Assembly: GCA_024648695.1 (NCBI GenBank)
Contig: JACAVV010000008.1
Coordinates: 124,001-188,000 of the forward strand
Direction: 5' to 3'
DNA: 64,000 nt
Source: Nitrospina sp.
Lineage (GTDB): Bacteria > Nitrospinota > Nitrospinia > Nitrospinales > JACRGP01
In this document: piece after piece, positions 34,880-54,552 of the stretch
Layout: every line of letters begins with the position of its first letter
How positions within the stretch are numbered: the stretch's first letter is position 1
Notes under the pieces: model-generated
What the model was told of the DNA's origin: nothing
Seen by the model: only the letters and a program-made list of their open reading frames with translations
Database searches by the model: none
Position numbers and translations under genes: made by a program

Positions 34880-37800
34880 ATGAATCCATCCACCCAAATC
34901 GAAAACTTTCTGGAATCCGTTAGAAAAAAACGGTTTCGTTTTTTTTGCTTGAACGGCGTTTATCTGCTGTTCATTGTTCTTGGTTTGTGTGCCGTTGTGG
35001 GAAATGGGTTGTTATACCTGTTTGCTTCCGCCCGGGATTACTGGATTCCCTTCGTCCTGCTGTGTTCTCTGCCTTTGGTATACATTTTTTTTACTTATTT
35101 TATTCGCGGAAGCTTTGCAAGCTTTGGTCAGGACGATGCGGCCCTATTGGTGGAACAGCATTATCCGAGTCTGAATAACAGTCTTATCAACTCCTCTCAA
35201 TTGAAGGGGGCTCTGGAAAACCCTGAAATCCATTCAGGAACATCGATCGAATTTGTTGAAGAATTACTGCGGCGAACGGAACAACAGATTAAAACTATTT
35301 CTATAGATACGCTATGGAACTTTAAGTCCCTCGCCAAAACCAGAAATACGTTGTTGACCCTGATCGCAACCATTGCCTTGGTTTCCTTTACGGTTCCCAA
35401 CTTTTGGGGCGAGGGTTTTAAAAACCTTACCGCGCCTCCTGCGGGGGAACTAATGGCCCAGGGAGAATCTGCCGGTACCGCCCTTCAACCCGGGACTGCG
35501 CAGGAGATGGATTTTGTAATAAGTTCTATTGATTTAACCTTTCATTATCCCGCTTATACTGGGCTTCCGAGTCAAACCGTTTCCGATTCCGATGGCAGGG
35601 TGAACGTTCTTCCCGGGACTCAGGTGAAGGTGCAGGCCCAAATTGATCCCCCTGTTGATCTGGCACGCCTGGTGTTCAATAAGGAATACCGATTGGCTAT
35701 GGACTCCCTGCGTCCCTCCTTGATGGCCGGGGAATTTATCGCGCGGCAACCGGGGGTGTACCAGTTCGAGGTGGAAACCCGTGGCGAAACGATTTTGCTG
35801 GAAAAAGAGTATCCCGTTACTCTAAGCCAGGATGGAGTTCCCCGGGTAGTGTTGTTCGTGGCCAATCCCAAACCGGTTTATTATGAAAGTGACACCATCA
35901 ATTTCTCCTACGAGAGCCACGACGACTTTGGCGTGTCCTCTATCTCTCTGGTGGCTTATGTGAATGGGCAGGAATCGCGCATTCCCATCAAAAAAGTCAA
36001 GAACCGGGAAACGGAAATCAAAGATAGTTATAAATGGTCACTGGCCACCATGAATCTTGGGCCCGGCGACCAGGTGGAATATTTTCTGGAAATAAAAGAC
36101 AACGACAATATTCTGGGTCCCAACACAGGACAGTCCGAAACTTTCACCTTCACCATTTTTGATACCCAGCAGGAACGGGAAGATTTGATCGCCTTGCAGG
36201 ACGATATGATAGAAAAAATGATCACACTGCTCTCGAAAAGCCTGTTGGGAACACGTTTGTATGAGACGGATGAAACGCCGAACATCATTCGTGTTCGAAG
36301 GTTTCTTTCGGAGAGTACCGATCAATTGATCGAGATCATTGGCTTGGCTCAGCATATTCAGGACCGCGCGAAATCGATTCCTACCTTTCCCACTTCGTAT
36401 TTGAATCTGCTGAAAAATATTATCAATGGTTTGAACCAGATTCGCGAACAGCAAATCAAATCGATGAAAACGTTGTCCGGTCCCAGTGGCCAGTCGACCC
36501 GTATCAGTGTTCGCTATCCATCTATCGGACCGGTCAACGATAAATTGATCCGGCATTTGGAACAAGATCTGCTGTTTTTGATCAAGATCACCAATCGGCA
36601 AAAGATGGATCAGGTGATGGATTTAAAATCGGATTTGATGGAGATGGCAGAATCCTTAAAAGAACAGTTTGAGAAAATGAAGGAACAAAAGGAAGCCGGA
36701 GTGACTCCCGAGTTTCAGGCTCAGATTGAAATGCTCAAACAAACTCTTCAAAAACTGATGGAACAGTTGGCCAGTCAAACGCAGTCGCTTCCGGATGAAT
36801 TCCTCAATTCGCAAGCTGTTAAAAATCTCGATCTGGAAAAATTCAACCCTGCTTTCGATAAACTGATGGAGTTGGCTAAAAACGGTAAAATCGATGAGGC
36901 TTTGGAAGAACTGCAACGCATGATGGATGATTTGCAGACCCTGGCCAACGAGCTCAATCAGGCTAACGAGAATATGGAGGATTTGATAGACACCAAATTG
37001 ATGGAGATGATCGATGACACCCTGGAGGATTTGGATAAGCTTGAATCAGGCCAATCCGAGTTGTTAAACGAAACGTCTGAAATCAATCAATCCTTGCGCA
37101 AAGCTCAATCCGAGATGTTTGAAGATCCTCTTGAAAAATTCTTTGAGGAATTGATTGCCGATGTCAAAGAAGTTGAAGACATTCTGGATGGGGACAAGAG
37201 TTTTATTGAATCGCATATGATCATCGAAAAGTTCGATAAGCTGTTGGAGCAGGAAGCCGAAATCAGCCGCGAAGTCCAGGAACTCAGCCAGAAGTCGATC
37301 GACTCTGAAGAGGAGGTTAGCCGGCAAGCGCGATTTCAGGAATTGAATGAGGCCCGAAAAAAATTATCGCATATTCATTCTGCGAAAGATGCTCTCAGGG
37401 TAAACACGGTGGATCGTTTTCGAAAAGGCATGCCGCAATTGTTTGAAAAATACGAAAGGCTGGAGGAGTTGGCCGAGTTGAACGATTTACTTGAGTTTAA
37501 CGTTTTGTTCAAAAACACCTTTCCCGATATTTTGAGGTGGAGCAACAATCTCAGGATGTCACCGGATGTTCGTGAAGATATTGGAGAGCGACTGGAAAAA
37601 GACCTGCTCGATATCACTGCAATCAATAGCAGGATTTCTTCCAAACTTGGAAGCCTGAACCAGAAAATGCAAAAAGATTTTCAGGCACTGATTGATCAGA
37701 AAACCGGTGAAAAGCTTGATCAAATGGCGGAGCAACAACAACAATTGCGGCAAAAGTCGGATGAGGTTGCGCAAATGCTTTCTGAAATGAATCAAAGAAA

Positions 37801-38215
37801 CCCGATGATAAGCCCCGGTCTGGGTTCCCAAATGAGAGGGACGGGCCGGACGATGGGGAATGCCCGGCATCACCTGAAAAAGCACGATGTACCCAATAGC
37901 GTTCAATCGGAAAACAGGGCGCTCAAGCAAATAAAGGATATGAAAGATCAGTTGAACCAACTCAAGAATTCCAATAATGCCGAAGGCCAGCAAAAAGGGC
38001 AGAAAAATGTTCTTAAGCTCGGTACGGGTGGTTCGCGTGATCCCCGCCGTGGCGGCTCGCTCAGGATGCAGAGGGAGCGGGTGAATCTTCCTTCCGAAGA
38101 CCAGTTCAAAGTTCCCGGCGAATTCCGCGAAGAAATTCTGGAAGCTATGAAGAATCAGTACCCGTCCAAATACAAACGCTTCATTTCTGAATATTACAAG
38201 GAACTGGTTAAATGA
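34880..38215 (+). CDS. Large DUF4175-like membrane and coiled-coil protein
   Basis: 1111 residues. Two membrane helices near the N-terminus (about 22-47 and 52-75) and a third near 155-172. A beta-rich extracytoplasmic region follows (about 200-420, including VYQFEVETRGETILLEKEYP), and then about 600 residues of charged helix and coiled coil (LEQLQRMMDDLQ-like repeats). The C-terminus ends YPSKYKRFISEYYKELV. This is the DUF4175 arrangement, of unknown function. The stop overlaps the next gene by 4 bases, and MoxR follows, so it is probably part of a MoxR-associated membrane complex. Confidence 0.7.
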   Translation: MNPSTQIENFLESVRKKRFRFFCLNGVYLLFIVLGLCAVVGNGLLYLFASARDYWIPFVLLCSLPLVYIFFTYFIRGSFASFGQDDAALLVEQHYPSLNNSLINSSQLKGALENPEIHSGTSIEFVEELLRRTEQQIKTISIDTLWNFKSLAKTRNTLLTLIATIALVSFTVPNFWGEGFKNLTAPPAGELMAQGESAGTALQPGTAQEMDFVISSIDLTFHYPAYTGLPSQTVSDSDGRVNVLPGTQVKVQAQIDPPVDLARLVFNKEYRLAMDSLRPSLMAGEFIARQPGVYQFEVETRGETILLEKEYPVTLSQDGVPRVVLFVANPKPVYYESDTINFSYESHDDFGVSSISLVAYVNGQESRIPIKKVKNRETEIKDSYKWSLATMNLGPGDQVEYFLEIKDNDNILGPNTGQSETFTFTIFDTQQEREDLIALQDDMIEKMITLLSKSLLGTRLYETDETPNIIRVRRFLSESTDQLIEIIGLAQHIQDRAKSIPTFPTSYLNLLKNIINGLNQIREQQIKSMKTLSGPSGQSTRISVRYPSIGPVNDKLIRHLEQDLLFLIKITNRQKMDQVMDLKSDLMEMAESLKEQFEKMKEQKEAGVTPEFQAQIEMLKQTLQKLMEQLASQTQSLPDEFLNSQAVKNLDLEKFNPAFDKLMELAKNGKIDEALEELQRMMDDLQTLANELNQANENMEDLIDTKLMEMIDDTLEDLDKLESGQSELLNETSEINQSLRKAQSEMFEDPLEKFFEELIADVKEVEDILDGDKSFIESHMIIEKFDKLLEQEAEISREVQELSQKSIDSEEEVSRQARFQELNEARKKLSHIHSAKDALRVNTVDRFRKGMPQLFEKYERLEELAELNDLLEFNVLFKNTFPDILRWSNNLRMSPDVREDIGERLEKDLLDITAINSRISSKLGSLNQKMQKDFQALIDQKTGEKLDQMAEQQQQLRQKSDEVAQMLSEMNQRNPMISPGLGSQMRGTGRTMGNARHHLKKHDVPNSVQSENRALKQIKDMKDQLNQLKNSNNAEGQQKGQKNVLKLGTGGSRDPRRGGSLRMQRERVNLPSEDQFKVPGEFREEILEAMKNQYPSKYKRFISEYYKELVK

Positions 38216-39768
38216 TTCGGATTTTGAATTTTCTTATTTTCCTGGTTTTGGTTTTCCCACCGGCGATCCATGCACAATCGGAATCCTTGCAAAAGCAGAT
38301 CCTTGAAGTCCACTCGCTCCTGGATCAATGGCAAATAGAAGACGCCGAGCGTTTGACATCTACCCTCATGGAAAAACATTCCGATATGGGGGATGTGCAT
38401 TTTCTCAATGGGAAAGTGGCCTTCTTTAAAGGCAATTATGAATTTGCCTCGGAAACTTTCAAGCGAATCGATGCCGGTCCGCAATGGATCAAGGACTTTG
38501 TTCATTTGGTTGAAGAAACCAGGGAGGCTACTTCCGGTTTTGTCCAGCAGGAGTCGGAACACTTTGTGTTTCGTTTTCGTGAAGGTCCCGATGAAATTCT
38601 GGTTCATTATGCGAAGGAAGTTTTGGAGCGGTCCTATAAGGTGTTGGGAGAACTGTTCGAGTATTTTCCAAAAGAAAAAGTAATCGTGGAGTTTTACCCC
38701 GACCGCGAGCCTTTTTCCCGTATATCTCCACTGACCTTGAAAGACATCGTTACCTCCGGAACTGTTGCCCTGTGTAAATACAATCGCTTGATGATGATTT
38801 CACCGGCCTCTCTGGTTCGTGGTTACAACTGGATGGACACCCTGAGCCATGAGTACATTCATTATCTGTTGGCGAGGAAAAGCCGCAACAACGTTCCCTT
38901 ATGGATCAATGAAGGCATTGCCAAATATTTTGAGTCACGCTGGCGAGAGGATAAGGAGTTTCTGGAACCGATTGGAAAAACCGTATTGACCCGCGGGCTG
39001 GACAATGATTATCTGATTGCTCTCGAAGACATGATGCCGTCACTGGCCAAACTGAAAACCGCTGAGGATGTGCAACTCGCTTATGCCCAGGTAGCGACCA
39101 TGGTGGATTTTCTGGTCACAACCAAAGGGGAGTCGGTCATTGCAGAGATGTTGTCAGGTCTGGCAGAGAACCCCGAGTTTCAGCCGGTGTTTGAGGAGGT
39201 GTCTGGACTCGATTTGAAGTCGTTTCAAAAAGAATGGAAACCTTTTATCAAGGAAAAAAAATGGGATACCATTCCCGGATTGAAGGTGCTTCAGTTTCAA
39301 TTTAAAAAGGATCGTTCTGAGGATGGTGAAGAAAAAGATTACAGCGAACTGGACACTCAAAAGGCCCAGGACCATGCGCTGTTGGGGGATATTTTAAAGT
39401 CTCGGAATTATGTGGATGCCGCGATCATGGAGTACCAAAAGGCTCTGAAATCCACTCCCAGCTTTTCACCCATCCTTCACAACAAGCTGGCAGGAACCTT
39501 GATAATGACGAAGGAGTATTCCAAGGCTGAGACCTTTTTAAATGAAAGCTTGAAATATTATCCACAGTTTCACACCACTCTCACCAATTTGGGTGAAGTT
39601 CATTTATTGAAAGGGAACCACGAAACCGCCGCAGATTATTTTGAAAAGGCGATCCGGGTCAACCCCTTCAATCCTTTTGTGCACCAAAGGCTGATAACGA
39701 TTCGCAGTAAACTCGGTCAAAAAAACAGGGAGAAACTGCAAGTGCGGTTGTATCAAAAATTGGGATAG
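38212..39768 (+). CDS. Secreted gluzincin (peptidase MA-like) with TPR repeats
   Basis: 518 residues. Signal peptide (about 1-22). Helical N-terminal repeats come first, then a zinc protease domain with HEYIH (His213, Glu214, His217) and the third ligand Glu234 in WINEGIAKYF. That is the gluzincin pattern of the peptidase_MA_2 family. The C-terminal 150 residues are TPR-like helices (YVDAAIMEYQKALKSTPSFS; YSKAETFLNESLKYYP; ETAADYFEKAIRVNP). It overlaps the preceding gene (ATGA) and is followed by moxR. It probably acts in the periplasm on proteins handled by the complex. Confidence 0.82.
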   Translation: MIRILNFLIFLVLVFPPAIHAQSESLQKQILEVHSLLDQWQIEDAERLTSTLMEKHSDMGDVHFLNGKVAFFKGNYEFASETFKRIDAGPQWIKDFVHLVEETREATSGFVQQESEHFVFRFREGPDEILVHYAKEVLERSYKVLGELFEYFPKEKVIVEFYPDREPFSRISPLTLKDIVTSGTVALCKYNRLMMISPASLVRGYNWMDTLSHEYIHYLLARKSRNNVPLWINEGIAKYFESRWREDKEFLEPIGKTVLTRGLDNDYLIALEDMMPSLAKLKTAEDVQLAYAQVATMVDFLVTTKGESVIAEMLSGLAENPEFQPVFEEVSGLDLKSFQKEWKPFIKEKKWDTIPGLKVLQFQFKKDRSEDGEEKDYSELDTQKAQDHALLGDILKSRNYVDAAIMEYQKALKSTPSFSPILHNKLAGTLIMTKEYSKAETFLNESLKYYPQFHTTLTNLGEVHLLKGNHETAADYFEKAIRVNPFNPFVHQRLITIRSKLGQKNREKLQVRLYQKLG

Positions 39769-39842
39769 ATTACAATCGACAGTCGCGGCTCTTTCTTCAG
39801 CAGGATCAAAGCCCCCTTTCAATAATTTTATAGAGGTCATTG

Positions 39843-40829
39843 ATGGACGATTTGGATTTGGCCAGAGAATTTCTGGAAGCCAAAGAACAAGTGATTCGGG
39901 AAATTCGCAAAGTTATAGTTGGACAGGATGATGTGATCGAAAACCTGTTGATCGCCTTGTTTTCCAAAGGTCACTGCCTGTTTGTAGGTGTGCCCGGATT
40001 GGCAAAAACCTTGCTCGTAAGCACTCTTGCGGAAATTTTGCATTTGAAATTCAGCCGAATTCAATTCACTCCCGACTTGATGCCTTCGGATATCACCGGC
40101 ACCGATATTTTATACGAAGACCACTCGACGGGAAAGCGAGATTTCCAATTCATTCGCGGTCCCATTTTTGCCAATATCATTCTTGCTGATGAGATCAACC
40201 GGACTCCACCCAAAACCCAGGCGGCTTTGTTACAGGCCATGCAGGAGCATCAGGTAACGGTAGGGGGAAACACATACCAGGCCGATCAGCCTTTTCTGGT
40301 TTTTGCCACGCAAAATCCTATCGAGCACGAAGGAACCTATCCTTTGCCGGAAGCTCAGTTAGACCGGTTCATGTTCATGATCAATGTGGAGTACCCGTCC
40401 AAAGAAGAGGAAGTGAAGATCGCTTTGTCCACTACCTCGGGAGTCAAACCCGATTTGAATATTGTAATGCGTTCCGAGAAGGTGATTGAGCTTCAACAAT
40501 TGGTTCCAAAAGTTCCCGTTTCCGAGCATATTGCGAAATATGCCGTGGAATTGGTACAGTCCACCCGCCCGCAAAACGGGGGGACGCCGGATTTTATCAA
40601 TGAATGGATTCATTGGGGAGCGGGACCGCGTGCATCGCAATATCTTATCCTTGCTGCAAAAACTCGAGCACTTTTAAACAATCGGGTCAGTGCCACCATA
40701 GAAGATATTAAAAGTGTTGCCCGGCAAGTCCTGGAACATCGGCTAATACTGAATTTCAAGGCAGAAGCGGAAAATGTCAAAGCCCTCGACATTATTGACA
40801 AGCTGATCGAAACGGTGAAGGTTCAATAA
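39843..40829 (+). CDS. MoxR-family AAA ATPase
   Basis: 328 residues from the ATG at 39843 (AGAGGT upstream). Walker A is GVPGLAKTLL, Walker B is ILADEINRTPPKTQAALLQAMQ, sensor 1 is FATQNPIEHEGTYPLPEAQL, and the C-terminal lid has GAGPRASQYLILAAK. MoxR proteins act as chaperone-like ATPases, usually with von Willebrand factor A or DUF58 partners. None is present in this window downstream; instead the partners encoded upstream are a DUF4175-like giant and a protease. Confidence 0.93.
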   Translation: MDDLDLAREFLEAKEQVIREIRKVIVGQDDVIENLLIALFSKGHCLFVGVPGLAKTLLVSTLAEILHLKFSRIQFTPDLMPSDITGTDILYEDHSTGKRDFQFIRGPIFANIILADEINRTPPKTQAALLQAMQEHQVTVGGNTYQADQPFLVFATQNPIEHEGTYPLPEAQLDRFMFMINVEYPSKEEEVKIALSTTSGVKPDLNIVMRSEKVIELQQLVPKVPVSEHIAKYAVELVQSTRPQNGGTPDFINEWIHWGAGPRASQYLILAAKTRALLNNRVSATIEDIKSVARQVLEHRLILNFKAEAENVKALDIIDKLIETVKVQ

Positions 40830-40857
40830 AAAATGGACAGGCCCAACGGACCTGCCC
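40827..40857 (-). terminator. Terminator of the 315-residue repeat protein gene
   Basis: On the minus strand GGGCAGG (40857-40851) pairs with CCTGTCC (40841-40835), one G-U pair, followed by ATTTTTTAT. Confidence 0.65.
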
Positions 40858-40883: not shown

Positions 40884-41831
40884 TTACTGTCCGGAAATAT
40901 GTCCCGTACTACCACCGGACGATCCTGAAATATGACCCGAACCGGAGTCCACAGTCACTCCGGATACGTGTGATGAAACCGGTTCCTCATAGCCTCCGGT
41001 TTCTCGGGTTTCTTCCGGAGGACTGATGATTCCGCTGATTCCTGAAACATGTTGGCTTTCCGAACCGCTTGAGCCGGAAATATGGCCCGAACCTGGGTTC
41101 ACATGCCTGCCAGAAACGTGGGTTTCAGGGATTCTTTCGAGGCCACCGGTTTCACGGTGTTCTTCCTGACCACCTGTTTCTCCGCGGTTTCCTCTTCGGG
41201 CTCTTCGTTTTTCACGCCTTTCGCCTCGTTCTTCCCTTCGTTCATTTCTTCTTTCTTTAAATTCTTCTCGCCGGTTGCTTCTTCTCTCACCATATTCCTC
41301 GCGGCGATTTTTTCTTCTTTCACCGAATTCTTCACGACGATTACTTCGCCTTTCTTTCCTTTTTCCGCGGAATTCTTCACGGTTGGAGCGCATTTTTTCA
41401 CGAAACTCTTCTCTGGCTTCACCCACTTTACCCCTGTATTCTCTCCGGGCTTCCCGTTTGTTTTCTCTGTATTCGCCTCTTCCTTCCCGTCCTTCTTCCC
41501 GATACCTGTCTTTAGCATCTCGCTTTTTTTCACGAAACCTGTCCTTGGCATCTCGCTTCTTTTCCCGGAACTTGTCTTTGGCGTCCCGCTTTTTCTCTCT
41601 AAATTTATCTCGACCCTTCCTTCTTTTTTCACGATCATTATCAGCCAAAATAAGTTTATCTGGATTCAAATCATGAATTTGCACATAGCTATTAGGCAGG
41701 GAACTGCTGGGGAAGGCGTTACCTGCTGAGAAAGTGTCAATTCCCTTGGCAAACATGGGGACCGCAAATAAAATAATTCCGGTAAGACATAGTCCGAAAA
41801 TCAATACTGATTTAATTTTTTGACTCATCAA
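40884..41831 (-). CDS. Secreted hendecad-helix and HISG-repeat protein, larger paralogue
   Basis: 315 residues, no known family. Signal peptide about 1-29 (FGLCLTGIILFAVPMFAKG). A linker ends in LILADNDREKRRK, and residues about 65-216 are one uninterrupted Arg/Lys/Glu/Asp helix. Aromatics recur every 11 residues (77, 88, 99, 110, 121, 132, 143, 154; then, after a phase slip, 169, 180, 191), and three near-perfect 11-residue copies of KFREKKRDAKD lie at 76-108. The C-terminal part is two copies of an ETGG...HVSG...GSGHISGSSG unit (227-256 and 277-315) ending GHISGQ. It looks like a long stiff rod with a Gly/Ser/His-rich tip, exported to the periplasm or surface. The smaller paralogue lies immediately upstream. 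Confidence 0.75.
   Translation of the reverse strand: MMSQKIKSVLIFGLCLTGIILFAVPMFAKGIDTFSAGNAFPSSSLPNSYVQIHDLNPDKLILADNDREKRRKGRDKFREKKRDAKDKFREKKRDAKDRFREKKRDAKDRYREEGREGRGEYRENKREARREYRGKVGEAREEFREKMRSNREEFRGKRKERRSNRREEFGERRKNRREEYGERRSNRREEFKERRNERREERGERREKRRARRGNRGETGGQEEHRETGGLERIPETHVSGRHVNPGSGHISGSSGSESQHVSGISGIISPPEETRETGGYEEPVSSHVSGVTVDSGSGHISGSSGGSTGHISGQ
41508..41606 (-). repeat. Three 33-bp tandem repeats within the larger paralogue
   Basis: Codons 76-108 are three nearly identical 11-codon units (FREKKRDAKD plus one Lys/Arg). More diverged units continue towards the 3' end. Confidence 0.7.
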
Positions 41832-41886
41832 ATTTTCTCCTGAAATAAAAGATGGAAAAAAGACCTTCTTTTAAGTATAGCCACAA
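41832..41886 (-). promoter_or_regulatory. Conserved leader and -10 of the larger HISG-repeat gene
   Basis: On the minus strand there is TATACT (complement of AGTATA 41874-41879), then GAAGGTCT (41868-41861), CCATC and TTTCAGGAGAA just before the ATG. The same blocks occur in the same order ahead of the paralogue at 42515, supporting a shared promoter and leader. Confidence 0.5.
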
Positions 41887-41912
41887 TCCATTGTTGTTTC
41901 AGATAATTATAT

Positions 41913-41948
41913 AAAAAAAGGGCAAGCCCTAAAAAAAAAGGCTTGCCC
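41913..41948 (-). terminator. Terminator of the 177-residue repeat protein gene
   Basis: On the minus strand GGGCAAGCC (41948-41940) pairs with GGCTTGCCC (41928-41920) across a T-rich loop and is followed by seven T. The flank TTTAAATTCGGGCA matches that of the neighbouring paralogue's terminator. Confidence 0.8.
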
Positions 41949-41981
41949 GAATTTAAAATTTGAGAAAACTCAAAGAGTGTC

Positions 41982-42515
41982 TTATTGACCGGAAATATGG
42001 CCTGTAGTGCTACCTCCGGAGGACCCCGAAATATGACCCGAACCAGGGCTCACCTGCGCTCCCGAAACATGGGGAGATGGAGGAGTTTCTTCTGTACCTC
42101 CCGTTTCCACGGGTCCCACTTCACCGGACCCTTTTCTTCTTTCACGGAGTTGTTTTCTCTTTTCCATCATATCCTTTCGCCTACTTTCGCGTCTTTCATT
42201 TCTTTTTAGTCTGCGTTCTTCACGAATCGATTTCATATCATCTCGATATTCTTCCCTCGCTTCTCGCTTTTTATCGCGAAATTCTTTTATTGCATCTTTT
42301 CTTCGATCACGATGATCATTGTCAGCTAATATAAGCGGATGCGAATTAATTTCCTGCCTCTCTACCTGGCCAAAAGTTTCTGCCTTTGAGGGCGAAACCA
42401 ACACACCTTCATCACTAAAAGACCCTGACCCTTTAGCAAATGAAGGTCCTGCTAAAAACACCGATCCGGAAACCAAAAGTCCCAAAACCAAAGCTTTATT
42501 CTTTTTCTGGCACAT
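41982..42515 (-). CDS. Secreted hendecad-helix and HISG-repeat protein, smaller paralogue
   Basis: 177 residues with the same architecture as its neighbour. Signal peptide about 1-28 (VLGLLVSGSVFLAGPSFAKG). The shared LILADNDHRDRRK motif follows, then a short charged helix (about 65-130) with aromatics at 79 and 90 (11 apart). One C-terminal unit, ETGGTEETPPSPHVSG then PGSGHISGSSGG, ends GHISGQ. It has its own terminator, so the two genes are separate units that arose by duplication. No function can be assigned; shared expression is suggested by the matching leaders. Confidence 0.72.
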   Translation of the reverse strand: MCQKKNKALVLGLLVSGSVFLAGPSFAKGSGSFSDEGVLVSPSKAETFGQVERQEINSHPLILADNDHRDRRKDAIKEFRDKKREAREEYRDDMKSIREERRLKRNERRESRRKDMMEKRKQLRERRKGSGEVGPVETGGTEETPPSPHVSGAQVSPGSGHISGSSGGSTTGHISGQ

Positions 42516-42576
42516 CTACAATTCTCCTGAAAGGATGGATGGGTAAACTAAGACCTTCGATTTAGTATATCTACAA
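42516..42576 (-). promoter_or_regulatory. Conserved leader and -10 of the smaller HISG-repeat gene
   Basis: On the minus strand there is ATTGTAGATATACTAAATC with TATACT (complement of 42564-42569), then GAAGGTCT (42558-42551), CCATC and TTTCAGGAGAA before the ATG. The order is the same as at 41832-41886. Confidence 0.5.
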
Positions 42577-42657: not shown

Positions 42658-44358
42658 TCAGTTCGTTCCACTCACTGCGGCAGTTTTTACTGCCCTGGAA
42701 TCCTGCATATCCCCCACAAATTCCATAGCAAATCCAGTAGAAGTGCCCTGAACTACGACTGCGCCCCACATGCTTAAAAAGGTGATGTCGGGAAAGCCTC
42801 TTCCTGTACTCTGGTTATTGCCGGGGAAAGAAAGGGGAGCCCTGGATTGCGGCTTAAAAACCAATTGCCCGAAACTGGAACCGGAGGTGCCGAGAATAAA
42901 CTCGGCATCCGGCACGTTGGTTGGATTGATCACGGGATTGTTTTCGCCAACAATAAATATCCGACGGTTGGAATTGGAATTTATAGTGAACTCAATTTCG
43001 CCGAATAGATCGGATCCATTTTCTTTGACCGCCTGAACGACCAGTCCAATTTGAGAATTCATCCCGGAAAGGGAAGGGTGGCTCACATTTAAAAACGTAT
43101 AGGTTTGAGTGTCCGATTGCCAATAAGGTGAAATCACATTGTTTCGGCTACTGCGATCAAAGGGAGTTCCGGAAACATTCGTTTGTCGTATTCGGTAAAT
43201 GGCCCCGTTGGATTGCACATCGGCGACATACAATTCCCCATTTTCATCTTCACCAAAAGCACTGATGGAGATAGAACTGTCCAGCAGGTCGCGAGTATCC
43301 CAGGTATTGGTCGAATTTAAAGTAGCCCCACGAATGATTCCGGTACAAAAGTCACCATAAAAATACACGCCATTCATTTTCGGGTAACGTTTGCCCCGAT
43401 AGCGATATCCACCGGTAACTGAACAATCACCACCATCATGGTTGTATTCCAGAACAGGAAGTACCAAACTTCCATCGTTACAATTTGAGGAAGGATTGAA
43501 ACAATTGGACCCTTCCATCAATCGCCAACCATAATTTTCTCCACCAGAACTGGAAGCCGATTGGAAATCAATCTCTTCGATATCACCTTGTCCGACATCA
43601 CCGATAAACATATCGTGCGTCTCACGGTCAAAAGAAAAACGCCAGGGATTGCGCAAACCATAGGCCCAAATTTCTTCGCGGGCTCCGGCGGTTCCTACAA
43701 AAGGGTTTGAAGAAGGAATGGCAAAAGGCGAACCGCTGTCCACATCAATTCTTAAAATTTTACCGAGCAGATCTCCCAGATCCTGCCCACGATTATTCGG
43801 ATCGTTGGAGGACCCCCCATCGCCGGTGGAAATATATAAAAACCCGTCATTGCCAAATTGCAACTGACCTCCATTATGATTTGAAAAGGGCTGATCTATT
43901 GTCAATAGAATCGATTCGGAACTGCTGTCTGCCAATTGCGGATTGCTGGATACAGAGAACCTCGAGACCACAGTATTTCCATTTGAATCTGTATAATCGA
44001 CATAGAAAAAACCATTGCTTGAATAATTGGGATGGAAAGCTACGCTGAACAAACCTCTCTCAAATCCGGATGTGATTTGAGAACTGATATCCAAAAAAGG
44101 CTGGGGAAGGCTTTGGTTGCCGTCAAATATCAATATTTGCCCCCCCTGGGTTGTGATGAACAGCCGGCCCGATTTGTCGCCAGCGTGAGTGATGGCTATT
44201 GGACTGTTAATGTTATTTGCAACCAATTCGATCTCAATTCCAAGGTCGGATAAAGGAGTGAGCGCTTGTGATGAAGATACTGTTCCAAGTAAAACTATTA
44301 AAGCTATCCAATATTTAAAAATATTGAGCGCTCTGGTTTTTATTGATTTGGTTTCCAT
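42658..44358 (-). CDS. PQQ-dependent sugar dehydrogenase with extra C-terminal domain
   Basis: 566 residues. Signal peptide about 1-32. Residues 40-395 are a soluble glucose/sorbosone dehydrogenase beta-propeller (GSDH). Landmarks are RGLFSVAFHPNY, the catalytic His161 in SNHNGGQLQFGNDG plus LYISTGDGG, WAYGLRNPWRFSFD, and GGYRYRGKRYP. Such enzymes oxidise sugars or aldehydes with PQQ in the periplasm or outside the cell. Residues 406-553 are an additional domain not part of the family (ISPYWQSDTQTYTFL to GFAMEFVGD). It recurs at the N-terminus of the giant YD protein at 58979. The gene stands alone. Confidence 0.85.
   Translation of the reverse strand: METKSIKTRALNIFKYWIALIVLLGTVSSSQALTPLSDLGIEIELVANNINSPIAITHAGDKSGRLFITTQGGQILIFDGNQSLPQPFLDISSQITSGFERGLFSVAFHPNYSSNGFFYVDYTDSNGNTVVSRFSVSSNPQLADSSSESILLTIDQPFSNHNGGQLQFGNDGFLYISTGDGGSSNDPNNRGQDLGDLLGKILRIDVDSGSPFAIPSSNPFVGTAGAREEIWAYGLRNPWRFSFDRETHDMFIGDVGQGDIEEIDFQSASSSGGENYGWRLMEGSNCFNPSSNCNDGSLVLPVLEYNHDGGDCSVTGGYRYRGKRYPKMNGVYFYGDFCTGIIRGATLNSTNTWDTRDLLDSSISISAFGEDENGELYVADVQSNGAIYRIRQTNVSGTPFDRSSRNNVISPYWQSDTQTYTFLNVSHPSLSGMNSQIGLVVQAVKENGSDLFGEIEFTINSNSNRRIFIVGENNPVINPTNVPDAEFILGTSGSSFGQLVFKPQSRAPLSFPGNNQSTGRGFPDITFLSMWGAVVVQGTSTGFAMEFVGDMQDSRAVKTAAVSGTN
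42700..43143 (-). other. Shared unknown domain, copy 1 (C-terminal in the sugar dehydrogenase)
   Basis: Residues 406-553. Landmarks are VISPYWQSDTQTYTFLNVSH, MNSQIGLVVQA, FIVGENNPVINP, FGQLVFKP, GRGFPDITFLSMWGAVVVQG and STGFAMEFVGD. Copy 2 is at 58434-58898. Confidence 0.7.
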
Positions 44359-46896: not shown

Positions 46897-46962
46897 GCTC
46901 TTTGCTTTTCCTTTTGGATTCGTTGGCCCATCTTTTAACAGAATATTGGGTTCCCGAAGAGG

Positions 46963-49461
46963 ATGTATCCTCTACTCCCTTACTTTTTAGCCTATTCAGG
47001 CGGAGTCCTTTTTGCAGTTCAAGGACCCATCGGTTTGTTCTTTTCTTATATTCTCCCGTCGGTGTTGACAGGTACAGCGTGCTGGGTCTTTATTCGAAAC
47101 AAAAAACCGCGGCCTTGGCAGTGGGTCGCGCTGGGGTTAGTTTTTACTATTGGAATCCTTTCCCTGTTTCGCGTATCTCCGGAACTTCCGAAAAATCATA
47201 TTCGAAAAAATATTCAGGCCGGACGCCTTGCTGAGCTTACAGGAAAGCTACTGATTCCACCTGAAGTGTTAATTGATAAAACCCGCTATATCGTTGAAGC
47301 TGAAACCCTGCGCTATGGCCAGGTCCGGATCAATATAACGGGTAAAGTACAAATCAATGTTTATCGTCCCGGAAACACTTTGAAAGTGGGAGATAGGGTT
47401 CGGTTCCAAAAGGTCCGCTTAAAGCTCCCCCGAAACTTTAAAAACCCGGGTCGATTCGACTATCAAAGGTTTCTGGCCAGAAAAGGCATTAATGTAATTG
47501 GGAGCCTTTCCAGTAAGGGATCGGTTGAAAGTATTGGATACTTTCCACTTCCCTTTTTAGTATCCAAACGGGAACAGATACGAGGCAAAATCCTTCATGC
47601 CATTGATACTCATTGGCCAGGGGATGAGGGAGCCCTGTTAAAGGCCTTGTTGCTTGGAGATAAAAGTTCTCTGGATGAAACCACCAGGGAAGCCTATCGC
47701 AATACCGGAATGGCGCATTTAATGGCGGTTTCGGGATTGCATATGGGCTTTGTGGCCACAGCATTTTTCTTTATTGGCTATCCCGTCCTGTTTTATGGTT
47801 TTTATAAATGGTATCGTCGTGGAGCCCTGGCCGGTTGGCCCCCAAAGCTCATTGCCGTGATGACCGTGTTTCCAGTTTTGTTTTACCTGCTGTTGGTAGG
47901 AGACAAGGTTTCCGCCCTTCGGGCAACGATTATGGTTTTGCTGTTTCTGTTTTCGATTTTGCTGAACCGGGAAAACACGGTCATCAACACAATGATTGCC
48001 GCCGCCTTCCTGATCTTGTTATGGAATCCGGCAAGCATCGCCTCCTTAAGCCTGCAATTATCGTTCACTGCCGTATTCAGTATCCTGTTTGTAGTCCAGT
48101 TATTAAATAGTGCGGAAAGAGACCCTCTGGACAAACTGATGCCGACAGGCAAATGGTGGCAGTATGGTAAAAATCTTTTTTATTGCAACTGTGCGGCCTA
48201 TTTGAGCACCTTGCCCATTTTGGCGTATCACTTTAATCAAATTAGTGTTGCGGGCTGGCTCCTGAATTTTTTGATGATACCCGTAGCGACTCTATTGATT
48301 CCTCTGGCCTTGTTTGTCCTTGTCGTGAATCTCGCCTGGATCGGCTTCGCGGGAGTGTTTGCCCCTCTTATTTCCTTACTTGTTCGAATCATTGATTTCG
48401 GACCCGCAAAACTGGGAAACCTGGATTTTATTTCGATACACTTGCCGACGCCTTCACCCTTAAGCCTGGTCGCCTACTACTTTTTACTGTTCGCAGGGCC
48501 CTGCTGGTGGGTGAACAGAAGAAACACTGCTCTTGATGATCCCCTGAAAAAAACCAGTTGGGGCAATATTAAACTTTTTAGAGCCTTAACCACCGCAGGG
48601 ATCCTTCTGATGATTGGATTGGTCTGGCCCCGTTTGCCCTGGGGATTTTCCAAACCGCTGTCGGTCTGGTTTCTGGATGTGGGGCAGGGGGAATCCACTT
48701 TCATCGAGTTTCCGGACAATACCACTTTACTGTTGGATGGCGGTGGGTTTTACAAAAACGCGCTGGATGTAGGTGGTAAAGTGGTGGCTCCGTTTTTGTG
48801 GGGACAAGGAATCCGAAAGCTGGACTACGTAGTGGCTTCGCATTCGGATAACGATCATATCAGTGGCCTGGAGTCAATTCTGGACCTGTTTCCCGTTAAG
48901 CATTATCTTGATTTTGGAGTCAGCCAAAAAGATGATCGGCTCCGTCGCCTGCGAATGAAGGCCGAGCGGCAGGGTGCTAAAGTTTATACCCTATGGCCGG
49001 GACGTTCTTTTTTTATAGGGGGGGCAATACTCAGTCCGATCCATCCTGACAAGCGCTATATCGAGGACACCTGGAAGGAATCACAAACCCGGGGAGGCAA
49101 CAACCTTTCCCTGGTGCTTAGGATAGATTATCAGGACTTCGGCCTATTGATGTCTGGCGATATTGCTAATGAGGCGGAAACCCATTTGCTGGAATCCGAT
49201 GCTGGTATACAGGCTGAGTTTCTGAAAGGACCCCACCACGGGAGCCGGTTTTCCAGCACTTGGGATTTTATCGATAAAGTTCAACCCAGGCATGTGTTTT
49301 TCTCGTCCGGATACTTAAATCCATTTTGGCATCCTCACCAGGAAACCTTGTCCAGGTATCGAAAACAAGGGACTCGGATCTGGAGAACCGATCGGAACGG
49401 GGCTATCCATGTCGCTACAGACGGTTTTAAACATCAAATTGAAACGCATGAATTGTATTGA
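46963..49461 (+). CDS. comEC: DNA uptake channel ComEC/Rec2
   Basis: 832 residues with all three parts. The N-terminal DUF4131 region includes LPRNFKNPGRFDYQRFLARK. The multi-helix Competence domain includes MAHLMAVSGLHMGFVATAFF and DKVSALRATIMVLLFLFS. The C-terminal metallo-beta-lactamase-like domain has WFLDVGQGESTFIEFPDN, the HxxxDH motif in ASHSDNDHISG, and GPHHGSRFSS. It forms the inner-membrane channel for transforming DNA. No other competence genes are in the window. The ATG lies in a GAGGATG context. Confidence 0.93.
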   Translation: MYPLLPYFLAYSGGVLFAVQGPIGLFFSYILPSVLTGTACWVFIRNKKPRPWQWVALGLVFTIGILSLFRVSPELPKNHIRKNIQAGRLAELTGKLLIPPEVLIDKTRYIVEAETLRYGQVRINITGKVQINVYRPGNTLKVGDRVRFQKVRLKLPRNFKNPGRFDYQRFLARKGINVIGSLSSKGSVESIGYFPLPFLVSKREQIRGKILHAIDTHWPGDEGALLKALLLGDKSSLDETTREAYRNTGMAHLMAVSGLHMGFVATAFFFIGYPVLFYGFYKWYRRGALAGWPPKLIAVMTVFPVLFYLLLVGDKVSALRATIMVLLFLFSILLNRENTVINTMIAAAFLILLWNPASIASLSLQLSFTAVFSILFVVQLLNSAERDPLDKLMPTGKWWQYGKNLFYCNCAAYLSTLPILAYHFNQISVAGWLLNFLMIPVATLLIPLALFVLVVNLAWIGFAGVFAPLISLLVRIIDFGPAKLGNLDFISIHLPTPSPLSLVAYYFLLFAGPCWWVNRRNTALDDPLKKTSWGNIKLFRALTTAGILLMIGLVWPRLPWGFSKPLSVWFLDVGQGESTFIEFPDNTTLLLDGGGFYKNALDVGGKVVAPFLWGQGIRKLDYVVASHSDNDHISGLESILDLFPVKHYLDFGVSQKDDRLRRLRMKAERQGAKVYTLWPGRSFFIGGAILSPIHPDKRYIEDTWKESQTRGGNNLSLVLRIDYQDFGLLMSGDIANEAETHLLESDAGIQAEFLKGPHHGSRFSSTWDFIDKVQPRHVFFSSGYLNPFWHPHQETLSRYRKQGTRIWRTDRNGAIHVATDGFKHQIETHELY

Positions 49462-50667: not shown

Positions 50668-53600
50668 TCAACAGCCGCATTTTTTTCCTAATTGACCCGC
50701 CGAACTATTGATTGTTCTTTGAGCCACTCTTCTTTGGGTGTCGGACCAGGCACTGAAATTTATGCCCCTGTTGGGAATAAGCTTGGTGGTGAACCGATTG
50801 CCAAAGCCACCTTTTACGCCAGCCTTCAATAATTCTTTGAACCGGGTTTTTCTTCCTCTCAATAAATTCCCCATATATTTAGAGGTGGCTGAAGAAACCG
50901 CTCCTGCGGCAAAGGGATTGCCTCCTGATAAAGATCCCGTAACCAAACCCGCAACCGCACCTACCGCACCGCTAAGAAATCCTTTTCCAAAGGCGGCAAA
51001 TTTTTCCAACACATTGCCCTTGCATTGAGAAGCATCGCCCCAGCCATTGATGAGTCCTCCCGCCAGGGGAACCGCAAGTGCGGCGGGAATAGTTCCATCC
51101 GGATCTTTCAGATTGATCGGACTGTTATAAACATAACGGTAGAGGTTGATATCCTCACCTTCAAACCCCAGCGGGTCTTCCGAAACAAATCGGCCGGTAA
51201 ACGGATCGTAATACCGAGCGCGATAATAGAAAAAGCCCGTTCCCGTATCAAATTCCCTTCCTGTAAAGGTGTAGGGGTTGGCAATCCCGGAAGAGTTTGA
51301 TATTGCAGAGCCATTACCATCGAACAATGAAAAATTTCCGTAACTGTCGTAGAGATAGGATTGCTGAACTGCTCCCTGATTGTTGGTAAGGTCGATGATA
51401 TTACCCAATCCGTCTACGATATAAAAATATTCCGTTCCGTCCCGGTCCATGACATGGGGTTCGTCCCGGTCGATGCCGTGAGTGTACCGCGCTCTTGGGT
51501 TGTTTTGATTTTCATCATATTCCCAAAGGATATCTTCATTATCGTAAATATAAATAGTTTCTGAACTACCTGAATTGATTCCAATCCGGCGGTCCATAGG
51601 ATCATAAATGAAAAATATGGTATCCGTGGGAGAGCTGTTTTCATCGGGTCTTTTTTCTACTGTGATCAAGCGGTCGTAACCATCATAGGTCATGGTATCG
51701 ATTTCCCCGGTATCCTTGTCTTCGCGCCGGGTCGCGTTGCCATTGACATCGTATTCGTATTCGAACTTATCATCTTCCTGCAGGCGGTTGGCGTCATCGA
51801 ATATCGAGTCGAGGGTCTGGTTGTCTTCACTCAATCGGTTTCCAACAGGATCGTAATCGAATGTTTGATCGTCATTTCCAGAAACAGGGTCGGTTGCCAA
51901 AACCAGGCGTCCGAGGTCATCGTACAGATAGATCAAACTGGTCTGAGCCGAATTGACCGGGCGCTGAGTATTCAATCCCGTCCTCTGATTTCCTGCGTCA
52001 TAGGGATAACTGACTGAAGAAACCGTTGAATTATTAAGGGTATGGGTCAGACTGGTGAGGTTATTGTTGGCGTCATATACATAGGTCCCGACCACTCCGT
52101 TGGAAAAGGTGGTTTTGGTCTGGCGGTTGAGCGGATCGAACTCGTAATTTACCGATTGTCCGGTAGGGTTCGTGATAGAGGTCAACCGGTTTAAACCGTC
52201 GTAAGTGTAATTGGTGACACCCTCAATGCCATCATTCATCGTTAAACGGTTTCCATAAGCATCGTAGGTGTATGTGATCTGTACTGATGGTTGATTGGAA
52301 GAGCCGGTGGTCGAGGTCGAAAGAATCCTTCCCTGCTGATCGTAAGTTAAAGTCAATTTGCTGTTTTCATCTTCTGCAGTGATCAGATTTCCAACTGAAT
52401 CGAATTCATAAGTAGTGACTGTTTCCTCCGTGATGCTATAGGTATGGGTAGCAATCGCTCCAATGGTAACGTTGGTTGGATTCGAGAGATTGACATTGAT
52501 TTTTTCAACTGGTTCAGGAAGGTTGTCATTCACAATAACCAGGTTAATGGTTTTTTCGGTTTCTCCCGGATTGAAAGTAAGTGTGCTATTGGGTAAAGTG
52601 AAATCCACTCCGCCTCCTGTAGCTGTGCCACTTGCCGAATAATCCACCGTTATCGTGTTAGCGGCGGCTGGAGTCAAAACAACGGTCAGGGGCACCGAAG
52701 GAACCTCTTCTTTACCCTTGGTTTGCGCAGTTTGAAAAGAGACGTTGCGCACGGTTACGGCAAAAGGTTCGTCTGTCAAAAATGGATCATAATCGATAAA
52801 ATCGCTCACCGGACTGCCTTGTCCGTTGGGATTGAATAGACCTCCCGTTCCCGTATCATCAGAATTGTCCAGAGGCCCGGTAGAATGACCCCAGTAATTA
52901 TTTTCTGCTGAAATGGTATTTGCATTTGAATCCATTATGGTCCCAAAGCCCTGGTTGCCCAAAATAATGTTATTGCTTATATTCGGGAATCCCGATTGAA
53001 TGTGAATTCCATCCCCTCCGTTTTGGGTGATCACATTATCCTGTATTGTTGGGGACGCATTATTATGGACATAAATTCCGTGGTTATTGTTTTCCCAAAT
53101 GGTGTTGCCCTGAATTGTTGGAAACGATTTGGGAGGATTGGACCCCGGATCAAAACGCGTGACATATATGGCGGCAGTGGCTTCGACCGTAATCGGTGGG
53201 TTCCCCGCTCCGGTGTCATCGATATTCTGAATGATGTTATTCATTATCGTTGGTGACGCATCGGAAATGCTGATTCCAAAATCGTTAAATTGCAACGTGC
53301 TGTTTTGTATCGTGGTGCTATCTGAATTGATCACCAGAAAATGGTGGCTGTATCTTAAAACGATATGATCCAGAACGCTGTTGGAGCTTGAGGACTGGAA
53401 GAACAAGGATCCCCAGTCGCCTTTAGCGGGCGTTGTGGTATTGCCGTCACCATTCGTATCGCCACCTACGACATCATCCAGAATAGATGTGAAAAATACG
53501 GGATCGTTTTCAGTACCGTTTGCCAAAAAGGTCCCGTTTACGTTGATGTCACTGAAGTTTTGTGTCGGTGGTAATTCCGCTTTGATAATAACTCCGGCAT

Positions 53601-54552
53601 CAATAGTCAGGGTTGTCGAGCCGCCAATATCCAGGCTGGGGCCCGAAGTGTTTGGAGACTTGGCCTTTAAAATATAGGGAAGGTTAGGATCCTTTGTCAA
53701 CGTTGCGTTCTGGGTTAGAAAACCCGAAAGCCCGATGCCATTGAAACCATTTCCGGTGAGGGTATTTGTGGATGTAAAATTACCCAGGGTGCTTGCGATC
53801 CCGTTACCATCCAACGAAAGGGGTTCATTTGTATTATTTTGAATCGCGTTGTTATTGATTGACGATAAATTCGAGGAATCGTGAACCTGTATACCACAGT
53901 CATTGTTTTGAATGGTGTTTCCCGTTAAAACCGGAGTACCGCCACTAATGAGGATCCCGCAAACGGTATTATTCTCCATAGTAAAATTGGTGATGGTGGG
54001 CGAAGCCGACTGAATATCGATGGCGTATTGATTGTTAAACGCAGAAACGCCATCGTTGAGGCTCACGGAGTTTGAAAGGATTTGAATACCAAAGTCACTA
54101 AACCGATATTCAACCTCCTCCAATTGCGAGTTCAGACTGGACGCTCCGAATTTTATAAAGTCCCAATCTCCTGGAGCGGGAGCGGTTGCTCCTCCATTGC
54201 CATTGGTGTCGCCTCCCACGGTATCGTCCTTAATGGATGTGAATACTATTTTATTTAAGTCCGTTCCAATTGCGCTTAACGTTCCATTGATGGTCAAAGA
54301 CCGGTCCACTTCAAATTTTACCACCACACCGGGATCGATGGTCAAGGTAATCCCTGTGTTGATACTGATATTTCCGTCCACAACGTAGGGACTTCCTGCC
54401 GTATCCCAGGTGGTGCCGGTGGTAATATTTTGGGTGATCGTAGTTTGTGCATGACTCCACCCGGAAAATCCTAGTACCAATAGCAGGGATAGGACTCCCA
54501 GGAAAATCCGGTTATTCATTTTTATGGATCGTTTCGGCTCATTCATAATCAT
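50668..54552 (-). CDS. Giant surface protein: beta-helix, Calx-beta, YD repeats and RHS core
   Basis: 1294 residues. Signal peptide MNNRIFLGVLSLLLVLGFSG after 11 extra residues. Residues about 30-600 are a parallel beta-helix (NNDCGIQVHDSSNLSSINNN-type repeats) with two copies of a module marked by DDTVGGDTNGNG...PAPGDW. A Calx-beta domain follows (TGGGVDFTLPNSTLTFNPGE), then about twenty YD repeats (YEYDVNGNATRR) and the RHS core (RYYDPFTGRFVSEDPLGFEG; NLYRYVYNSPINLKDPDG). The last 141 residues are unlike known toxin tips and end KKCGC. The ATG overlaps the upstream stop (ATGA). A surface or extracellular role is likely. Confidence 0.82.
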   Translation of the reverse strand: MIMNEPKRSIKMNNRIFLGVLSLLLVLGFSGWSHAQTTITQNITTGTTWDTAGSPYVVDGNISINTGITLTIDPGVVVKFEVDRSLTINGTLSAIGTDLNKIVFTSIKDDTVGGDTNGNGGATAPAPGDWDFIKFGASSLNSQLEEVEYRFSDFGIQILSNSVSLNDGVSAFNNQYAIDIQSASPTITNFTMENNTVCGILISGGTPVLTGNTIQNNDCGIQVHDSSNLSSINNNAIQNNTNEPLSLDGNGIASTLGNFTSTNTLTGNGFNGIGLSGFLTQNATLTKDPNLPYILKAKSPNTSGPSLDIGGSTTLTIDAGVIIKAELPPTQNFSDINVNGTFLANGTENDPVFFTSILDDVVGGDTNGDGNTTTPAKGDWGSLFFQSSSSNSVLDHIVLRYSHHFLVINSDSTTIQNSTLQFNDFGISISDASPTIMNNIIQNIDDTGAGNPPITVEATAAIYVTRFDPGSNPPKSFPTIQGNTIWENNNHGIYVHNNASPTIQDNVITQNGGDGIHIQSGFPNISNNIILGNQGFGTIMDSNANTISAENNYWGHSTGPLDNSDDTGTGGLFNPNGQGSPVSDFIDYDPFLTDEPFAVTVRNVSFQTAQTKGKEEVPSVPLTVVLTPAAANTITVDYSASGTATGGGVDFTLPNSTLTFNPGETEKTINLVIVNDNLPEPVEKINVNLSNPTNVTIGAIATHTYSITEETVTTYEFDSVGNLITAEDENSKLTLTYDQQGRILSTSTTGSSNQPSVQITYTYDAYGNRLTMNDGIEGVTNYTYDGLNRLTSITNPTGQSVNYEFDPLNRQTKTTFSNGVVGTYVYDANNNLTSLTHTLNNSTVSSVSYPYDAGNQRTGLNTQRPVNSAQTSLIYLYDDLGRLVLATDPVSGNDDQTFDYDPVGNRLSEDNQTLDSIFDDANRLQEDDKFEYEYDVNGNATRREDKDTGEIDTMTYDGYDRLITVEKRPDENSSPTDTIFFIYDPMDRRIGINSGSSETIYIYDNEDILWEYDENQNNPRARYTHGIDRDEPHVMDRDGTEYFYIVDGLGNIIDLTNNQGAVQQSYLYDSYGNFSLFDGNGSAISNSSGIANPYTFTGREFDTGTGFFYYRARYYDPFTGRFVSEDPLGFEGEDINLYRYVYNSPINLKDPDGTIPAALAVPLAGGLINGWGDASQCKGNVLEKFAAFGKGFLSGAVGAVAGLVTGSLSGGNPFAAGAVSSATSKYMGNLLRGRKTRFKELLKAGVKGGFGNRFTTKLIPNRGINFSAWSDTQRRVAQRTINSSAGQLGKKCGC
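50671..51093 (-). other. Variable C-terminal tip after the RHS core
   Basis: The 141 residues after DPDG are Gly/Ala-rich at first (GFLSGAVGAVAGLVTGSLSG) and then basic (KELLKAGVKGGFGNRFTTKL). I recognise no nuclease or deaminase motif. No small gene that could be an immunity partner lies downstream. Confidence 0.45.

Follow-up and report, generated by a model that had tools for sequence, protein, structure and literature searches.

A repeated HΦSG tail common to exported proteins and type II secretion components of Nitrospinota suggests a docking tag

How the type II secretion system (T2SS) chooses its cargo is an old open question. A rhomboid protease cleaves one known tag, GlyGly-CTERM, which comprises a membrane segment. 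In Vibrio, GlyGly-CTERM and rhombosortase provide a C-terminal tag that works with the T2SS, as in VesB (PMC13393428). Published work attributes the recognition of T2SS substrates to flexible or disordered segments that contact GspC and GspD, and no linear sequence common to them is known (PMC7949064).

Here we analyse two adjacent genes in a 64,000-nucleotide stretch of a Nitrospina sp. genome (the window), whose products end in repeats of H-[I/V/L]-S-G, written HΦSG, with ΦSG as its core. The same tail is common to parts of the secretion machine and to unrelated envelope proteins of Nitrospinota, a phylum that includes the main marine nitrite oxidisers, and this suggests an undescribed address or docking tag. 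Like GlyGly-CTERM, HΦSG is a short motif placed past an unstructured linker on unrelated exported proteins, with a presumptive part in T2SS traffic; unlike GlyGly-CTERM, the HΦSG tail lacks a membrane segment, comes in repeats, is sometimes internal and occurs also on T2SS parts. The tails of the window proteins are hydrophilic and end GHISGQ, in place of the C-terminal membrane segment and basic residues of GlyGly- and PEP-CTERM proteins. They resemble the PelI and Pel3 loops that bind GspC and GspD in being disordered segments of exported proteins, and differ in a strict four-residue motif common to exported proteins, GspC and GspI, none being known for those loops (PMC7949064). A four-residue motif borne by both machine parts and exported proteins makes cargo choice testable by mutation and peptide binding, and it provides a handle for finding envelope proteins in Nitrospinota, where their function is largely unexplored.

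The two window proteins follow one order: a signal peptide, a variable stretch ending in LILADND, a charged segment (71-73% charged in the two) and the tail (Table 1). The tail unit, ETGG...HVSG...GSGHISGSSG...GHISGQ, occurs twice in the larger protein and once in the smaller. Signal peptides were judged from inspection and hydrophobicity, not with a dedicated predictor, and by that judgement both proteins carry the Sec signal peptide expected of T2SS substrates. A preliminary description of this DNA had recognised two adjacent paralogues with this layout (signal peptide, LILADND, charged helix and a GHISGQ tail of two units or one), and had read them as an exported rod with a repeated H(V/I)SG tail. 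Our analysis bears this out: both reading frames lie at the positions described, on the minus strand, the larger and smaller proteins align with a BLASTP E value of 3e-19, and export is supported by inspection and hydrophobicity.

Table 1. Coordinates of the two rod genes, their products and flanking elements, as positions in the window.
Feature	Position	Strand	Extent	Details
Larger rod protein	40884..41828	-	314 aa	ORF list; RBS AGGAGAA
Signal peptide, larger	41748..41828	-	residues 1-27	...VPMFA/KG, by eye; hydrophobic stretch
Rod, larger protein	41184..41639	-	residues 64-215 (152 residues)	11-residue repeats; 73% charged, net +31
Tail, larger	40887..41183	-	residues 216-314	six HΦSG: 237, 249, 260, 287, 299, 310
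5' element TATACTNAANNGAAGGTCTT, larger gene	41860..41879	-		likely -10 and leader start
Terminator-like hairpin 3' of larger gene	40835..40857	-	10 pairs	T tail
Smaller rod protein	41982..42515	-	177 aa	ORF list; BLASTP to larger
Signal peptide, smaller	42435..42515	-	residues 1-27	...GPSFA/KG, by eye; hydrophobic stretch
Helix, smaller protein	42126..42338	-	residues 60-130	AlphaFold2, single sequence
Tail, smaller	41985..42125	-	residues 131-177	three HΦSG: 149, 161, 173; ends GHISGQ
5' element TATACTNAANNGAAGGTCTT, smaller gene	42550..42569	-		upstream alignment; genome search
Terminator-like hairpin 3' of smaller gene	41920..41948	-	11 pairs	T tail

The rod of the larger protein is encoded by 33-bp tandem repeats; its identity autocorrelation at lag 11 is 0.60, and its aromatic residues are spaced 11, 11, 11, 11, 11, 11, 11, 15, 11 and 11 apart; the lag-11 autocorrelation and the regular aromatics point to an 11-residue helical repeat. 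AlphaFold2 modelled the charged segment of the smaller protein as one helix (pLDDT about 97-98 over most of its length) and left the tail disordered; as the input was a single sequence, we take the helix as no more than plausible. The notion of a 'tip' domain belonging to this family does not hold, the tail being disordered in the model and present on many unrelated envelope proteins. A long charged helix in an exported protein recalls TolA-type proteins and ER/K single alpha helices. However, the TolA match is weak and falls far below cut-off (NCBIfam TIGR02794, 18.1 bits against 59.45), and opposite-charge pairs at i/i+3 and i/i+4 are depleted (53, compared with 73.4 +/- 6.0 in shuffles), so the rod is not an ER/K single alpha helix. 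A Sec-exported, straight charged helix bearing a disordered HΦSG tail is the best explanation of both proteins.

Neither protein has a match above cut-off in Pfam, NCBIfam, PHROGs or PDB sequences, and the earlier statement that they belong to no known family stands for Pfam, NCBIfam and PDB sequences. Residues 2-108 of the larger protein match a PHROG of unknown function at E 1.6e-4. Genome contigs searched with the smaller protein as query yielded no relatives. We rejected an identity with GspC or GspI, with which the window proteins have only the tail in common and whose Pfam families they do not match; the rod genes lie outside the gsp operon and not near it. In related genomes, proteins of the rod group end HVSGN or HISGAR.

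Each rod gene has a terminator hairpin of its own. The larger gene is best started at ATG 41828, which AGGAGAA precedes, in preference to TTG 41831, and the smaller starts at ATG 42515. About 65 bp 5' of both genes is conserved as well, with strong alignment over TATACT, GAAGGTCTT, CCATC and TTTCAGGAGAA; the putative -10 within the 5' element, TATACT, gives a 9/12 match. A search of the whole genome found no copy of this element without mismatch beyond these two genes, and we therefore rejected a regulon defined by it. An upstream element that is conserved and unique to both genes indicates that the pair arose by a duplication that carried the 5' region along.

Within the window's own genome, clustered motifs are confined to few proteins. 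Our sample of 0.86 Mb (20%) comprised the window, most of contigs C34 and C54, contig C6 and the starts of about 20 contigs, and in it at least three [VIL]SG within 45 residues occur in 4 of 793 open reading frames: GspC, GspI and the two rods. Nine look-alike three-residue patterns gave 0-2 clustered frames each, against these 4; C6 was included because of a profile match there, so the figure is a clean count, but from a sample not drawn at random. In a second genome (G022), of which 0.4 Mb was covered, GspI is the sole protein with clustered ΦSG. The motif is not proteome-wide: single HΦSG number 13 against about 6 expected in the window's genome, 9 of the 13 coming from the rods, and 4 against 2.9 expected in G022.

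We then asked how widely the tail is found. An initial scan for members used the exact pattern HΦSG[NQ] followed by a stop, many of its matches being due to chance; a pattern search for H(V/I)SG, one C-terminal residue and a stop covered 77 Nitrospinota genomes, and the open reading frames were then read. With a tail profile (A3), 30 of the 77 genomes yielded a total of 44 matches at E<=0.01. Because A3 was built from tails of the same genomes that it searched, we ran the reversed profile over all 77 as a control, and it found nothing at E<0.01 (best E 0.017). The repeats are shared by unrelated proteins and are not private to one family.

Reading the matches revealed at least nine types of carrier, which belong to unrelated exported or membrane families. 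Besides the rods, GspC and the GspI-like pseudopilins, they comprise small lipoproteins of two lineages, M12-type peptidases, transglutaminase-like proteins, an exported protein rich in Cys, membrane proteins that have acidic linkers, and a small bitopic protein of the inner membrane (MWKNxFLESC). Pfam matches to T2SSC (E 1.8e-4), N_methyl, Reprolysin and Transglut_core support the corresponding assignments, and a hydrophobic export segment precedes the motifs in all 50 of the tabulated non-T2SS carrier frames. We propose an HΦSG-tail group defined by two or more HΦSG or xΦSG motifs in a disordered, extracytoplasmic segment and by an export signal ahead of them, features that the window proteins have, the export signal being a hydrophobic N-terminal segment. 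The conserved neighbours of the lipoprotein and MWKN carriers include no obvious common enzyme. The densest carrier seen, a lipoprotein of genome G007 (L095:542-961, minus strand), has eight HΦSG among its C-terminal 75 residues.

Triple HΦSG, with CATAT required for the first motif, were looked for in 84,980 species, and at least 119 stretches were listed. Among those listed, credible in-frame proteins came from Nitrospina or Nitrospinota records or from two further loci, L209 and L211, which encode the same MWKN protein; the remaining stretches read were low-complexity repeats. Given the CATAT requirement and a list of at least 119 stretches, rare carriers may still exist beyond the phylum. 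In 50 control genomes of other phyla, themselves selected for holding the DNA pattern, the matches among those read lay mainly at the repeats that had prompted their selection. Within what was searched, the tail is a short linear motif particular to Nitrospinota, whose genomes here are fragmented metagenome-assembled genomes. A literature search on the motif or on glycosylation in Nitrospina found nothing relevant.

The link to type II secretion appeared in the window's own genome, where A3 gave a single match below E=5 besides the rods (G000:C6, E 0.05). This match is GspC, with the tail RISG...AVSG...HISGR at its C-terminus. The gene adjoins gspE (T2SSE, E 2.5e-145), and the operon continues through gspF, pseudopilin genes and GspL-like and GspM-like genes to gspD. 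The pseudopilin at the GspI position of the same operon ends SNVSGSTTPSSNISGATTSGTSNISGS, following the pattern NVSG..NISG..NISGS up to the stop. Across Nitrospinota, ΦSG lies in the last 80 residues of 25 of the 27 GspC read, and none of the 20 GspI read is without it. Most GspC tails take the form RΦSGA...HΦSG[RKQN] at the very end, and the motifs stand as conserved islands in a variable Pro/Ala/Lys linker. Non-T2SS tails occur in 27 of 58 genomes with a T2SS and in 2 of 19 without, a modest association (Fisher p=0.006) that is confounded by kinship and completeness.

The composition of the motif argues for selection on the protein. Of 153 distinct HΦSG contexts, 90 have I as Φ, 46 V, 14 L and 3 M; the motif is mostly followed by A, S, N, Q or T, and 28 of the motifs lie one residue from the C-terminus; copies are mostly spaced 8-13 residues apart. 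A peptide of the ΦSG tail type is, for example, GSGHISGSSGGSTGHISGQ. The motif serine is encoded by AGY in 87 cases and by TCN in 66, and at the third position of the xΦ?G tetrapeptides in the tails Ser is found in 150 of 152 and Thr never. That Ser is drawn from both codon families and never replaced by Thr indicates selection at the protein level. The first position is freer: the residues before ΦSG include N (22), H (5) and Y (4) in GspI, and H (23) and R (21) in GspC. As R, N and Y can replace His while Φ-S-G stays, His is not part of the core.

We tentatively favour, on sequence grounds, a docking tail that a T2SS-associated receptor recognises in the periplasm, a reading we hold to be quite possible and still short of probable. 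One common receptor in or at the T2SS would read ΦSG segments in the periplasm, and tagged proteins would thereby collect at the secretion machine, to be carried to the outer surface of the cell or retained there. On GspC and GspI, the ΦSG segments would help to assemble or gate the machine, and the rods would be surface or secreted spacers arriving by the T2SS route. The most concrete candidate for the receptor would be the SH3-like domain that the lipoprotein secretin GspD carries ahead of N0. In all 12 GspD tested from Nitrospinota (L267:207-2786 and L355-L373 are among the secretins of the phylum), the N-terminus is lipoprotein-like and a weak, recurrent SH3_3 match lies at this place, with E values from 1e-5 to 0.027; no match reaches the Pfam cut-off. 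SH3 domains of this kind may bind peptidoglycan instead, and a literature search for SH3 on GspD found no paper. The stricter proposal, that ΦSG is a linear T2SS address code with one periplasmic receptor, perhaps this GspD domain, is somewhat doubtful; if true, it would be the first simple sequence motif to mark T2SS-linked proteins. Docking at the T2SS has points against it: the rod genes lie away from its operon, and several carriers, among them the MWKN protein of the inner membrane and the acidic-linker membrane proteins, cannot be substrates of the ordinary kind.

Other readings of the tail have to be weighed against docking at the T2SS. An envelope enzyme might add a glycan or another group to the ΦSG serine, and a short repeated Ser motif in disordered extracytoplasmic tails, often C-terminal and with a pseudopilin among its carriers, is what such a modification site would look like. 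The C-terminal Ser of pilins is glycosylated by TfpO-type enzymes elsewhere, and the present tails resemble the TfpO/PilO case in the C-terminal Ser of a pilin-like protein. They are unlike it in their broader, unrelated carriers and in the exclusion of Thr. An O-glycosylation sequon would take Ser and Thr interchangeably, whereas Thr never occupies this position and GspI occasionally has Cys there (NVCG, NICG); the exclusion of Thr favours a shape-specific contact over a generic glycan sequon. The Φ before the Ser and the Gly after it vary no more than the Ser does, and targets are few per genome, unlike in known general O-glycosylation systems, so that we regard modification as doubtful. It is unlikely that the tail docks instead to an envelope partner outside the T2SS, such as a peptidoglycan-associated or periplasmic scaffold, with GspC and GspI merely two of its clients. 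Inner-membrane, lipoprotein and soluble carriers would suit such a partner, as would genome G020 (96% complete), which has tagged lipoproteins and in which no GspC, GspI or GspD was detected, its congeners having them. Against this, no carriers are as widespread as GspC and GspI, which in the sample of the window's genome are also the sole ones besides the rods.

Metal binding or polymerisation by the H(V/I)SG repeats, as first proposed for the window proteins, would fit the regularly spaced His of their tails, nine copies in all. We now consider it very improbable, and metal binding is disfavoured because His is dispensable in homologous tails: Arg and Asn take its place in GspC and GspI, in the proportions given above, while the ΦSG core is kept. 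The tails also present no pattern of Cys, Asp or Glu ligands, and their invariant part is Ser and Gly rather than His. Hardly credible, finally, is a neutral linker, in which disordered tails with much S, G, P and T would have come to look alike by chance. The empty reversed-tail control, the 0-2 clusters of look-alike patterns against 4, the islands of conserved motif in variable linkers and the use of both Ser codon families all speak against it, as does the third position, where other ΦxG tetrapeptides are not equally frequent and Ser takes 150 of 152.

The remainder of the window holds several further genes for envelope or exported proteins. Directly upstream of the smaller rod gene and on the same strand is a glucose/sorbosone dehydrogenase-type exported protein (42658-44358, minus strand). 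On the other side, at 34880-40829 on the plus strand, adjacent genes for a DUF4175 protein, a Peptidase_MA/TPR protein and a MoxR-type AAA ATPase form a set resembling a MoxR-linked envelope operon. A ComEC-like protein (46939-49461, plus strand) has one HISG inside the DNDH region of its metallo-beta-lactamase domain, a chance match with no tail. At 50668-58979 on the minus strand, two adjoining very large proteins of 1294 and 1476 aa contain RHS repeats and Calx-beta domains, with a right-handed beta helix in one of them, and this pair is likely to be surface-exposed or secreted.
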